A stretch of 64,000 bases of DNA, from the NCBI GenBank assembly GCA_013298895.1, contig JAAFJM010000004.1, positions 124,001 to 188,000 of the forward strand, written 5' to 3'. Source of the DNA: Bacteroidota bacterium (GTDB lineage: Bacteria; Bacteroidota; Bacteroidia; UKL13-3). This document shows, piece after piece, positions 14,075-16,812 of the stretch (position 1 is the stretch's first letter; each line of letters begins with the position of its first letter). Both the position numbers and the translations under genes were made by a program. Under the pieces are notes generated by a model. It ran no database searches. It worked only from the letters and a program-made list of their open reading frames with translations, and was not told the DNA's origin.

Positions 14075-14437
14075 TTAACTCTCCAACCTTTTAACCAACA
14101 TAAAAATATTTCCTTCTAAAGCTAAATAGCCATACTCATAACAAAATACATAAGTAGCCCCAGCTTTAGTGGTGTAAGTATGCGTTTGGTAATTAAAGTT
14201 GTAACCTAAGTCTTGCAATTTTTTTAAAGTTACTTTTGTTTTTCCTTCTTCTTGTGGAATAAGGCTTTCTAAAATTCTTCGGTTTTTGCGCAGCACATTA
14301 TTAATGGTTTTCATCAATGCTGTGCTATCGCTATTTAGTTTGTTATTGTAATTACTTCGACAAGCATCATCACAAAATTTTTTATCAATACGGCCTTTTA
14401 ATACTTCGCCACAACTGGCACACGTTTTAGTTTCCAT
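14075..14437 (-). CDS. Small zinc-ribbon protein
   Basis: A 120-residue soluble protein whose first 26 residues hold a likely zinc-binding site, CASCG then CDDACR (Cys6, Cys9, Cys22, Cys26), as in DUF2116-type treble-clef or ribbon proteins. The rest is a helix rich in Asn, Lys and Arg (about 38-62) and a small beta-rich tail with Tyr-rich strands (NYQTHTYTTKAGATYVF). The type recurs in Bacteroidota as a hypothetical protein; I do not know its function. It sits 9 bases after the transposase gene and 1 base before the hydrolase gene. Confidence 0.7.
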   Translation of the reverse strand: METKTCASCGEVLKGRIDKKFCDDACRSNYNNKLNSDSTALMKTINNVLRKNRRILESLIPQEEGKTKVTLKKLQDLGYNFNYQTHTYTTKAGATYVFCYEYGYLALEGNIFMLVKRLES

Positions 14438-14446
14438 AATTGTTCA

Positions 14447-14887
14447 TTATTTCTCTTTTAAAAAAGTCCACCCATATTTTTTCATGAAACCATTTATTTC
14501 ACTTTCAAATGAATGGACTGAATGATGTAATTCTTGATTATGAATGTATTTTCTTACTGATGCAAGATGACTTTCGCTCACACCAACAACCCAATAATCA
14601 TCTTGCCAAATAAATTTTTCAGTAGTTAATTCATTTTGATTTATCCAAAAAGATGATTCGCCTTTTATTAGCTGGGCAACTTTGCCAATAGTTTGTTCTT
14701 TACCTAGTGAAATAAGGCAGTGAGCATGATCTTGATAGCCATTTATACAATCAAGCCAAATTCCTTTTTCATCGGCATTACTTTTAATATGCTGAAAAAC
14801 CTTTTTTCTTAATTCAGCTGAATTTAAAAATGGCTGTCTATTTTTAGTAGAAAAAACCAAGTGTATATAAACTCTCACCCAACTCAT
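14447..14887 (-). CDS. REP-associated tyrosine transposase (Y1/IS200-like, RAYT)
   Basis: A 146-residue Y1 transposase of the IS200/IS605 superfamily. Visible: the N-terminal strand VRVYIHLVFSTKNRQPF, the HUH metal site DHAHCLISLG (His54, His56), and the helix with the nucleophile KYIHNQELHH (Tyr114), followed by the usual HH and a short tail. Proteins of this class cut single-stranded DNA at hairpins and are thought to spread REP-like repeats rather than a classical insertion sequence. The neighbours fit: two large hairpin-forming repeat units begin within 20 bases of its start codon (14904-15407). No tnpB partner is present. The motifs are intact, so it may be active. Confidence 0.9.
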   Translation of the reverse strand: MSWVRVYIHLVFSTKNRQPFLNSAELRKKVFQHIKSNADEKGIWLDCINGYQDHAHCLISLGKEQTIGKVAQLIKGESSFWINQNELTTEKFIWQDDYWVVGVSESHLASVRKYIHNQELHHSVHSFESEINGFMKKYGWTFLKEK

Positions 14888-14903
14888 ATTTTTTATTTTA
14901 TGT

Positions 14904-15159
14904 GGCTAAAGCCAAGTTGTATTACTTTTTCTTTTATCAGTTGCTAATCCCGAAAGCTTTCGGGAAACTGCAATAGATGCTTTAGTTGCTGAAAATTACT
15001 CTTAATTATCAATTGTTCAGCAACTGCAATAAGTTGTTTTAAAGCCATATTTTACTTTCAATAATAAAAAATTGCAGTAACAAAATCCATTGCAGTTTCC
15101 CGAAAGCTTTCGGGATTAGCAACTGTTAACCAAACAAAATTCCTTTTTTTGCTTTAGCA
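14904..15159. repeat. Nested inverted-repeat element, copy 1 (REP/MITE-like)
   Basis: A structured non-coding unit beside the transposase. The outer arms are GCTAAAGC (14905-14912) and GCTTTAGC (15151-15158). The inner arms are perfect 37-base inverted repeats (14938-14974 and 15089-15125), each holding the palindrome TCCCGAAAGCTTTCGGGA. A further internal stem pairs AGTTGCTGA (14984-14992) with TCAGCAACT (15017-15025). The core AGTTGCT/AGCAACT recurs in alternating orientation. It is probably a substrate of the neighbouring transposase. Confidence 0.8.
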
Positions 15160-15179
15160 TCAATTTTAAATATTTATTT

Positions 15180-15407
15180 GGCTAAAGCCTATTTGTATTA
15201 CTTTCTTTTATCAGTTGCTTAAAAGCAACTGCAATAGATGCTTTAATTGCTGGAAATTACTCTTAATTATCAATTGTTCAGCAACTGCAATAAATTGTTT
15301 TAAAGCTATATTTTACTTTCAATTATAAAAAATTGTAGTAACAAAATCCATTGCAGTTGCTTTTAAGCAACTGTTAACTAAACAAAATTCAATTTTTTGC
15401 TTTAGCA
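15180..15407. repeat. Nested inverted-repeat element, copy 2 (REP/MITE-like)
   Basis: A direct repeat of copy 1, offset by about 275 bases, with the same outer arms (15181-15188 and 15399-15406) and near-identical filling. Its inner arms are a perfect 24-base inverted pair (15212-15235 and 15350-15373), but both arms carry CAGTTGCTTAAAAGCAACTG where copy 1 has the CCCGAAAG palindrome. Each copy is thus symmetric in itself while differing from the other. Confidence 0.8.
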
Positions 15408-15491
15408 TCATTTCCTAATTATTTCAATTTGTATTCAATACTAAATCAATTATTTACAAGTGCAATATAAATAAAATATTTCCGATTGCAA

Positions 15492-15564: not shown

Positions 15565-15652
15565 CAGTGTTGATTTACAAAAACAATCGAAATGTATGGT
15601 CAACAACAAGTTCAATATATTATTTCATTTAAAAAACAAAAAAACAACACGT

Positions 15653-15994
15653 ATGAACAACTTAAGAAACAGCATCCGCTTAATTGGTAATTTAGGTCAA
15701 AACCCAGAAGTGAAAGAAACAGCAAATGGCAAAAAGTTAGCTAAATTTAGCATAGCCACTAACGAAAGCTACCGCGATGAAAATGGCAAAGAAGTAAAAG
15801 AAACCATGTGGCATAACCTAGTAATTTGGGGCAAGCAAGCCGATACAGTGGCGAAATATTTAAAGAAAGGTAGTGAGGTAGCTATTGAAGGCAAACTAAG
15901 CAACCGCAACTACACAGATAAGGATGGGATTAAACGTTATGTAACCGAAATAGTGGTAAATGAATTTGTAATGCTTGGAGGTAAAAATAACTAG
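15653..15994 (+). CDS. ssb: Single-stranded DNA-binding protein, copy 1
   Basis: A 113-residue SSB that coats single-stranded DNA in replication, repair or recombination. The OB fold is recognisable from NSIRLIGNLGQNPEVKETANGKKLAKFSIA (read as two parts), ETMWHNLVIWGKQAD and GKLSNRNYTDKDG. It ends at VMLGGKNN right after the fold, without the long flexible linker and acidic C-terminal tip with which most bacterial SSBs recruit partner proteins. I chose the ATG at 15653 because the other two copies start there; an in-frame ATG at 15596 lies in the leader. It is the first of three near-identical tandem copies. Confidence 0.93.
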   Translation: MNNLRNSIRLIGNLGQNPEVKETANGKKLAKFSIATNESYRDENGKEVKETMWHNLVIWGKQADTVAKYLKKGSEVAIEGKLSNRNYTDKDGIKRYVTEIVVNEFVMLGGKNN

Positions 15995-16060
15995 TAATAA
16001 TAGAAAGTATAAAGTAATTATTTAAGTATAAAATCAAATTTTTAAAAAACAAAAACACGT

Positions 16061-16402
16061 ATGAACAACTTAAGAAACAGCATCCGCTTAATTGGCAATT
16101 TAGGTCAAAATCCAGAAGTAAAAGAAACAGCAAATGGCAAAAAGTTAGCTAAATTTAGCATAGCCACCAACGAAAGCTACCGCGATGAAAATGGCAAAGA
16201 AGTAAAAGAAACCATGTGGCATAACTTAATAATTTGGGGCAAGCAAGCCGACACAGTAGCCAAATATTTAAAGAAAGGTAGCGAAGTAGCTATAGAAGGT
16301 AAAATAAGCAACCGTAACTATACCGATAAGGATGGAATAAAACGTTATGTAACCGAAATAGTAGTAAACGAATTTGTTATGCTTGGAGGTAAAAACAACT
16401 AG
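16061..16402 (+). CDS. ssb: Single-stranded DNA-binding protein, copy 2
   Basis: The second of three tandem copies, 113 residues, differing from copy 1 at only a couple of positions (LIIWG for LVIWG, GKISNRN for GKLSNRN) and with the same end, VMLGGKNN. DNA differences between the copies are mostly at silent codon positions, which suggests the proteins are held under purifying selection after duplication. Like its siblings it is an OB fold only, with no acidic tail. The 66-base spacer before it repeats the leader of copy 3, so each copy may carry its own ribosome-binding region. Recent tandem duplication is the simplest explanation; an assembly artefact is unlikely given the scattered differences. 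Confidence 0.93.
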   Translation: MNNLRNSIRLIGNLGQNPEVKETANGKKLAKFSIATNESYRDENGKEVKETMWHNLIIWGKQADTVAKYLKKGSEVAIEGKISNRNYTDKDGIKRYVTEIVVNEFVMLGGKNN

Positions 16403-16470
16403 TAATAACAGAAAGTATAAAGTAATTAATTAAGTATAAAATCAAATTTTTAAAAAACAAAACAACACGT

Positions 16471-16812
16471 ATGAACAACTTAAGAAACAGCATCCGCTTA
16501 ATTGGCAATTTAGGCCAAAACCCAGAAGTTAAAGAAACAGCAAATGGCAAAAAGTTAGCTAAATTTAGCATAGCCACCAACGAAAGCTACCGCGATGAAA
16601 ATGGCAAAGAAGTAAAAGAAACCATGTGGCATAATTTAATAATTTGGGGCAAACAAGCAGATACTGTAGCCAAATATTTAAAGAAAGGCAGCGAAGTAGC
16701 CATTGAAGGCAAACTAAGCAACCGTAACTACACAGATAAGGATGGCATTAAACGTTATGTAACCGAAATAGTAGTAAATGAGTTTTTGATGCTTGGTGGT
16801 AAAGCCGATTAA
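16471..16812 (+). CDS. ssb: Single-stranded DNA-binding protein, copy 3
   Basis: The third tandem copy, 113 residues, with the most distinct end (FLMLGGKAD instead of FVMLGGKNN). The OB-fold core is otherwise the same and again lacks the acidic C-terminal tip. The array ends after this gene with a strong terminator at 16837-16877, so the three are likely one transcript. With no acidic tip these proteins could only act as plain DNA-coating proteins, or as partners of a full-length SSB elsewhere in the genome. Proximity to a Y1 transposase, an enzyme class that uses single-stranded DNA, is suggestive but not evidence of a shared role. Confidence 0.93.
   Translation: MNNLRNSIRLIGNLGQNPEVKETANGKKLAKFSIATNESYRDENGKEVKETMWHNLIIWGKQADTVAKYLKKGSEVAIEGKLSNRNYTDKDGIKRYVTEIVVNEFLMLGGKAD

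Follow-up and report, generated by a model that had tools for sequence, protein, structure and literature searches.

The systems closest to the locus described here are the REPtrons, the IS200/IS605 elements and the subclasses of Y1 transposases. In the sections of Quentin et al. (2018; PMC6006769) concerned with these proteins, class 2 RAYT enzymes are given the signature Y---NP, and subclass 1.2 is characterized by the motifs Y---Q--HH, WQ and DH[IV]H, a length of about 148 aa, a C-terminal domain of its own, low copy number and occurrence in Bacteroidetes and Cyanobacteria; the table of the same paper has the entry 'no' under REP for subclass 1.2. Among the matches listed from the open-access literature, one paper (PMC6006769) treats the subclass, and none gives REPs for it. 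The subclass has previously been described as IS200-like, without IS or REP features and with an unassigned substrate. In our study, a Y1 gene tentatively of this subclass was found beside an array of ATTG-footed hairpins, which can be regarded as its candidate substrate. It appears fairly probable that the locus is a REPtron-like unit, consisting of a subclass 1.2 Y1 transposase and an array of its own ATTG-footed REP-like hairpins, arm copying being included in this reading.

The window (the whole stretch of DNA that was analysed, 64 kb long) contains two tandem hairpin units adjoining the Y1 transposase gene, and these are the strongest two short-range inverted repeats of its entire length (Table 1). 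The gap between the Y1 start codon and GGCTAAAGCC of unit 1 is 16 bases, and the unit bodies form a direct repeat of 132 nt at 95% with a spacing of 261. All four window arms have ATTG as the foot. The first-pass annotation had described tandem nested inverted-repeat elements with outer arms, perfect inner arms (37 nt in copy 1, 24 nt in copy 2) and an inner hairpin clear in copy 1; all of these were re-measured and confirmed, the inner hairpin being perfect in copy 1 and imperfect in copy 2. The inner-arm palindrome is also, as had been claimed, of one kind in copy 1 and of another in copy 2, on both arms of each, and within the 64-kb window CCCGAAAGCTTTCGGG is confined to copy 1. In the unit alignment, both sides of the middle hairpin are altered in a matching way in the proximal unit of G003, from GTTGCTGAA/TTCAGCAAC to GTTACTGAA/TTCAGTAGC. 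An Rfam scan of the window gave no family at the gathering score.

Three tandem ssb-type genes (15596-16812) are located just past the hairpin array, the first of which belongs to the single-strand binding protein family; they have 300-nt stretches with 93-94% identity, and in G009 (L017) two or more of them likewise stand in tandem. The Y1 gene is directly followed on its downstream side, here and in G003, by a 120-aa ORF (14075-14437) with an N-terminal CxxC...CxxxC pattern, for which no match was found in Pfam or NCBIfam.

Table 1. Features of the hairpin array and the adjoining gene in the window, followed by the orthologous dispersed sites, which are given by locus
Feature	Position or locus	Strand	Details
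Y1 (HuH) transposase, IS200-type TnpA, tentatively subclass 1.2 by motif Y---Q--HH	14447-14887	-	146 aa; PF01797 E 1.6e-24
GGCTTTAGCC palindrome	14904-14913	-	17-26 nt upstream of Y1 start codon
Unit 1 (copy 1), transposase-proximal	14904-15159	.	outer arm GGCTAAAGCC ... TGCTTTAGCA; aligned with G003 units
Copy 1 outer arms GCTAAAGC/GCTTTAGC	14905-14912 / 15151-15158		
Copy 1 longest perfect inner arms	14938-14974 / 15089-15125		37 nt
Unit 1 hairpin A	14938-14970 (14938-14974 with foot)	-	foot ATTG (CAAT 14971-14974); long tip TCCCGAAAGCTTTCGGGA
CCCGAAAGCTTTCGGG	14949-14964 and 15099-15114		
Unit 1 middle hairpin	14984-15025 (arms 14984-14993 / 15016-15025)	-	AGTTGCTGAA/TTCAGCAACT, perfect; GCAAT next
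Unit 1 hairpin B	15093-15125	+	foot ATTG 15089-15092; long tip, identical to hairpin A
Unit 2 (copy 2), distal	15180-15407	.	near-identical to distal G003 unit
Copy 2 outer arms GCTAAAGC/GCTTTAGC	15181-15188 / 15399-15406		
Copy 2 longest perfect inner arms	15212-15235 / 15350-15373		24 nt
Unit 2 hairpin A	15212-15231	-	foot CAAT 15232-15235; short tip GCTTAAAAGC
Unit 2 middle hairpin	15245-15286	-	imperfect counterpart of unit 1 middle hairpin
Unit 2 hairpin B	15354-15373	+	foot ATTG 15350-15353; short tip
Orthologous tip-replacement site	L003/L132/L151		L003 and L132 both in G000
Orthologous tip-replacement site	L145/L133/L143/L134		
Orthologous tip-replacement site	L138/L139		long tip is another palindrome

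The window protein carries the motifs YIHNQELHH, WQDD and DHAH. The first of these is common to nearly all parsed relatives, the two exceptions ending in RH or KH, and those relatives that bear a name belong to Bacteroidetes or to allied MAGs. With NCBIfam, the protein passed the IS200 model (58.7, cut-off 55) and reached 43.8 bits with REP_Tyr_transpos, below the cut-off of 80. The top match of the PDB sequence search was ISDra2 TnpA (2xm3), and for the AlphaFold (AF2) model (pLDDT 89.0) the best Foldseek matches were ISDra2 and IS608, with the RAYT structure 4er8 at rank 30. The protein does not have the class 2 motif Y---NP, and the hairpins do not have GT[AG]G as their foot. The first-pass annotation had placed a Y1 (RAYT) transposase beside the array: the Y1 part stands, by the PF01797 match and the 16-base gap, and the RAYT (TnpA-REP, class 2) label is ruled out by the YIHNQELHH motif, the NCBIfam cut-off and the fold ranking. 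The Y---Q--HH signature, the WQ motif, the length of 146 aa, the low copy number and the occurrence in Bacteroidetes agree with subclass 1.2. The HuH motif DHAH (DHIH in the 49%-identical relatives) departs from DH[IV]H, which is a published consensus and not an exclusive rule, and therefore the assignment to IS200-type TnpA of subclass 1.2 is kept tentative.

The genome of the window has two matches to the protein at E<=1e-25, one of them a 54% identical paralogue, which is the next best match, and no second window-type gene was found there. No tnpB neighbour is present at the window locus, and mobile whole copies (array and gene together), as in IS200/IS605, were not seen at other sites. The Y1 gene and the array are syntenic in G003 and G009. 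Since dN is 0.034 and dS is 0.215 in the NG86 comparison with G003, the window gene is under purifying selection. The G009 ortholog has an internal stop, yet the hairpin array persists, which counts against the REPtron-like reading. A separate tandem array, made up of different hairpins (AATGGCATTTATGCCATT, AATGGGTTAAAACCCATT and GGGCTGAAGCCC), accompanies the paralogue (G000:C6; L106, about 900-1500).

The search for further copies, suggested in the first-pass annotation, was successful in the own genome and in relatives. The pattern CCGTTN{8,30}AACGGCAAT gave 49 matches in 10 genomes of the genus as compared to 8 for a reversed-pattern control, the own genome having 8 copies of this CCGTT type with a control of 2. 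The outer stem is CCGTT/AACGG in these dispersed copies and CAGTT/AACTG in the window, and most of the dispersed copies have one unpaired base, variable in identity, before AACGG. Nearly all of the 23 distinct dispersed sequences have a palindromic middle, though the pattern does not require one. The copies at L003, L004 and L007 are intergenic; in being extragenic and repeated, the hairpins resemble REPs and BIMEs. The dispersed type is present in 0-11 copies per genome, a low number which counts against the REPtron-like reading and falls short of the more than 100 copies of REP/BIME families. Also against this reading, its copy number is linked only weakly to the window-type gene, with 8, 11 and 7 copies in the genomes having this gene (G000, G003 and G009) and 4, 9, 3, 0, 6, 0 and 1 in those without it (G001, G002, G004, G005, G006, G007 and G008). 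The pattern CAGTT...AACTGCAAT was rejected as a dispersed type, its matches outside the arrays having mostly unpaired middles. When a family of dispersed pairs was sought by means of the spacer, 5 places were found in 3 of the 10 genomes, too few for an arm test.

At three orthologous dispersed sites (Table 1), the tip of the hairpin varies while the foot, the outer stem and the flanks are constant, and the long tip of copy 1 is a tip found in dispersed hairpins. Comparison of L138 (1501-1544) with L139 shows a palindrome around ACTTCGACAAGCTCAGT at the hairpin apex in G006 and a short tip in G000. L003 (G000:C53) and L132 (G000:C25), on two contigs of the assembly to which the window belongs, share about 3 kb at 95.8% identity and have unlike tips, reflecting a strain mixture or a paralogue.

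In the unit alignment, window unit 2 pairs with the distal G003 unit, and marks of the proximal unit occur both in window unit 1 and in the proximal unit of G003. The short tip is nevertheless found on both arms of window unit 2 and of all G003 units (three seen), and the long tip on both arms of window unit 1; both arms of the proximal unit have hence changed in one lineage. An earlier step had probably rendered the arms identical in the ancestor of the window and G003, because G009, Pedobacter cryophilus L050 and L052 have unlike arms, one with a GGCTAAAGCC-type tip and the other with GCTTTTAAGC. The switching of template from one inverted arm to the other is a known process, according to the abstracts of PMC8604942, PMC8794818 and PMC7202029. 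The CTAA joint occurs in the short hairpin and in the CTAATCCCGAAAGCTTTCGGGATTAG palindrome (L033), and such sharing would fit a microhomology template switch. In G025 (L033 and other sites), CTAATCCCGAAAGCTTTCGGGATTAG is a perfect palindrome whose 22-nt centre matches six places; at L033, the one G025 copy examined, it has no ATTG foot. The GTTGCTAATC junction of both copy 1 arms was rejected as proof of a single origin; it is uninformative because it is simply GTTGCT of the array itself fused to the tip, which two events would be expected to yield as well.

Alternatively, each arm of copy 1 may have acquired its long tip from dispersed hairpins in an event of its own, with selection for structure keeping the palindromes and no copying from arm to arm. 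Single dispersed hairpins show tip replacement with similar junctions, so per-arm conversion is possible, and the CTAA microhomology is present at both arms. However, two events in one unit and one lineage would be required, and the earlier match in the window/G003 ancestor demands another coincidence. Moreover, both copy 1 arms are without a base before AACTG, whereas an extra base precedes AACGG in 9/9 long-tip CCCG-type dispersed copies, which lends modest support to one origin for both arms. Separate gains are hence considered somewhat unlikely, and arm copying within the REPtron-like unit is preferred for copy 1.

The relatives of the window protein comprised 36 loci, plus 24 matches in 20 of the 64 family genomes, and the set of 47 loci drawn up from them consists of loci picked by pattern or similarity and is not a random sample. 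From the 36 loci we omitted the partial matches L083 and L084, as well as L072 with its 119 nt of upstream sequence; of the 24 matches, L085-L093 were treated as duplicates of the window or of members of the 36 loci, and L102 and L103 were omitted. L081, L078, L080 and L051, with truncated gene frames, were kept. In the upstream arrays of the relatives, the hairpins vary in sequence and have ATTG directly 5' of the stem in common, and in many cases the start codon has a GGCTTTAGCC palindrome in its vicinity. The GGCTNNAGCC-type 10-mers are found in 35 of the 47 upstream 400-nt regions, in 20 of the 47 downstream regions and in none of the 47 genes. When the 255 tetranucleotides in the upstream 600 nt were ranked by the 7-bp stem following them, TTGC was first and ATTG second, these being overlapping readings of ATTGC. 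A 7-bp stem follows ATTG at 54 of its 573 occurrences in the upstream 600 nt (23 of the 47 loci), as compared to 0-17 stem matches for each of the 11 remaining arrangements of the letters A,T,T,G in the same regions and 2 of 288 occurrences of ATTG inside the genes. The density of ATTG hairpins upstream is 2.55/kb at 0-300 nt, 1.09 at 300-600 nt and 0.04-0.23 beyond 600 nt; the corresponding downstream values are 1.14/kb, 0.43 and 0-0.05.

Two results of this survey count against the REPtron-like reading. The strict ATTG-foot test was passed by merely 23 of the 47 upstream regions, and perfect hairpins of any kind show a weak contrast, with 1.74 upstream vs 1.375 downstream per 400 nt; this plain count was superseded by the foot-specific test with its letter-permutation and distance controls. 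Few or no ATTG hairpins are present at some loci (e.g. L060, L065, L079/L093 and L097), and L062 and L080, labelled Ignavibacteria or Ignavibacteriales, also have them. At L057 (2381-2830), a long AT-rich tandem array with units of about 60 nt lies upstream of the Y1 gene. In the form of tagged palindromes in inverted pairs, the hairpins agree with REPs and BIMEs. The REPtron-like reading with its own foot is adopted because ATTG hairpins cluster beside the genes in the 47 loci, and we read the ATTG-footed hairpins beside an orphan transposase as an unusual bacterial repeat hairpin, having its own foot in comparison to the described GTAG/CGTC REPs.

A purely regulatory role of the hairpins, as 5' leader or terminator for the transposase gene and not as enzyme substrates, has also to be weighed. 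GGCTTTAGCC-type palindromes are placed near the start codon in 24 of the 47 loci, the GGCTNNAGCC-type 10-mer being at a distance like that of the window in 24/47 loci (span -46 to -10), and RAYT expression is reportedly down-regulated by REP hairpins, according to a passage of PMC3733652. ATTG hairpins, on the other hand, also occur downstream and far from the gene, in inverted pairs, and such an exclusive role is unlikely in comparison to that of substrates in a REPtron-like unit.

The two arms were compared in 77 selected sequences, consisting of the window stretch plus 76 of the 188 loci collected. Among the 32 adjacent inverted ATTG-hairpin pairs, 7 have identical arms and 25 differ; the fraction 7/32 applies to detected pairs only, which include a few chance pairs or pairs with a GGCTTTAGCC core, and the script skips hairpins whose basal 5 bp contain a mismatch (e.g. 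right arms in G013). The identical pairs are the two window units, three G003 pairs, L022 (G067) and L127 (G004). The differing pairs include syntenic G009, L050, L053, L058, L063, L075, L111 and L118. In G009, both units have CAGTTGCTTTTAAGCAACTG and CAGTTAGGCTTTAGCCAACTG as arms, the right foot of the second unit having a changed letter, and in G013 four core elements were seen by eye to have two unlike arms each. Both homodimers and heterodimers of REPs are recorded in a passage of PMC3733652.

Arm matching as a general rule was rejected; since 25 of the 32 pairs carry different arms, syntenic G009 included, identical arms are not a rule and would represent a local accident of copying. The first-pass annotation had attributed matched arm changes to hairpin or single-strand copying and had named independently varying arms as the result that would speak against it. 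Its claim holds for the joint change in copy 1 (G003 comparison) and fails in its general form, as arms largely vary independently in relatives. It is accordingly quite improbable that transposase-driven hairpin-templated or single-strand copying is the rule and arms always match: the window and G003 units, L022 and L127 conform to it, but the 25 differing pairs and the G013 core elements do not, and nothing ties the copying to the enzyme. Least probable of all is that the array represents the degraded terminus of a typical IS200/IS605 insertion sequence, or a MITE, since the IS200 family protein with its IS200-type fold is outweighed by the absence of a tnpB neighbour and of a second window-type gene in the genome, by the purifying selection and the synteny in G003 and G009, and by the existence of several units and dispersed solo hairpins.

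In the REPtron-like reading favoured here, a low-copy transposase would be vertically kept next to its own REP-like hairpin array. Each hairpin has ATTG directly 5' of the foot, an outer stem and a replaceable inner palindrome, and the hairpins stand in inverted pairs flanked by GGCTTTAGCC palindromes. ATTG is probably a guide sequence because of the analogy with the IS608/ISDra2 guides and the GTAG of RAYT REPs (passages of PMC8266576), and the enzyme, by analogy, probably binds and nicks the single-stranded hairpin. The foot and outer stem are conserved, and other palindromes now and then replace the inner tips, as the fixed sites show. The two-unit array probably arose by tandem duplication. 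The most parsimonious course in copy 1 would be that one arm first acquired the CTAATCCCGAAAGCTTTCGGGA tip, which replication then carried to the second arm by switching template from one inverted arm to the other. A further-reaching view is that subclass 1.2 proteins are hairpin-editing enzymes, in which an ATTG-guided cut and rejoining of single-stranded hairpins at the fork would swap inner palindromes, the tips moving between arms, units and dispersed sites and the foot and outer stem being left in place; this is doubtful and only faintly probable. The natural tip replacement at fixed sites offers cases for studying palindrome change without loss of pairing.

In comparison to known processes and systems, the arms of copy 1 resemble quasipalindrome correction by template switching, where inverted arms become identical in one step, but this is a general replication error independent of any transposase. 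The IS200/IS605 elements (IS608, ISDra2) provide the nearest solved structures and have subterminal hairpins with a 5' guide tetranucleotide; unlike them, the window locus is without tnpB and without mobile whole copies seen, and has hairpin arrays on one or both sides. Subclass 2.6 (RAYT group 5, Bacteroidetes), in the passages describing it, belongs to the same phylum and has atypical flanking hairpins with copies elsewhere in the genome, but its proteins carry YIH[QN]NP and a 21-aa insertion and are about 179 aa long, as compared to YIHNQELHH and a length of 146 aa in the window protein. With TnpA-Y1 subclass 1.2, as far as the passages of PMC6006769 go, the motif, length, low copy number and Bacteroidetes occurrence are shared; in contrast to its tabulated REP 'no' and DH[IV]H, ATTG hairpins are concentrated beside the genes and the motif is DHAH here. 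The REPtrons of E. coli, Stenotrophomonas and Pseudomonas (GTAG REPs, BIMEs, REPINs) likewise have a HuH-Y1 gene flanked by palindromes tagged with a 5' foot, with inverted pairs, tandem units, dispersed intergenic copies and palindromicity preserved despite sequence change. In passages of PMC2817692 (Nunvar 2010), REPs next to orthologous rayt genes are reported to change jointly, in the same manner as here; the letters of GGCTTTAGCC also occur in this paper, whose passages deal with GTAG-tagged Gammaproteobacteria REPs. Unlike REPtrons, the window protein is of class 1.2 and not class 2, the tag is ATTG and not GTAG/GTGG or CGTC, and the window system has about ten dispersed copies at most as against hundreds. 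Our study suggests that the partnership of REPs with a HuH-Y1 transposase may have arisen in class 1 as well as in class 2.
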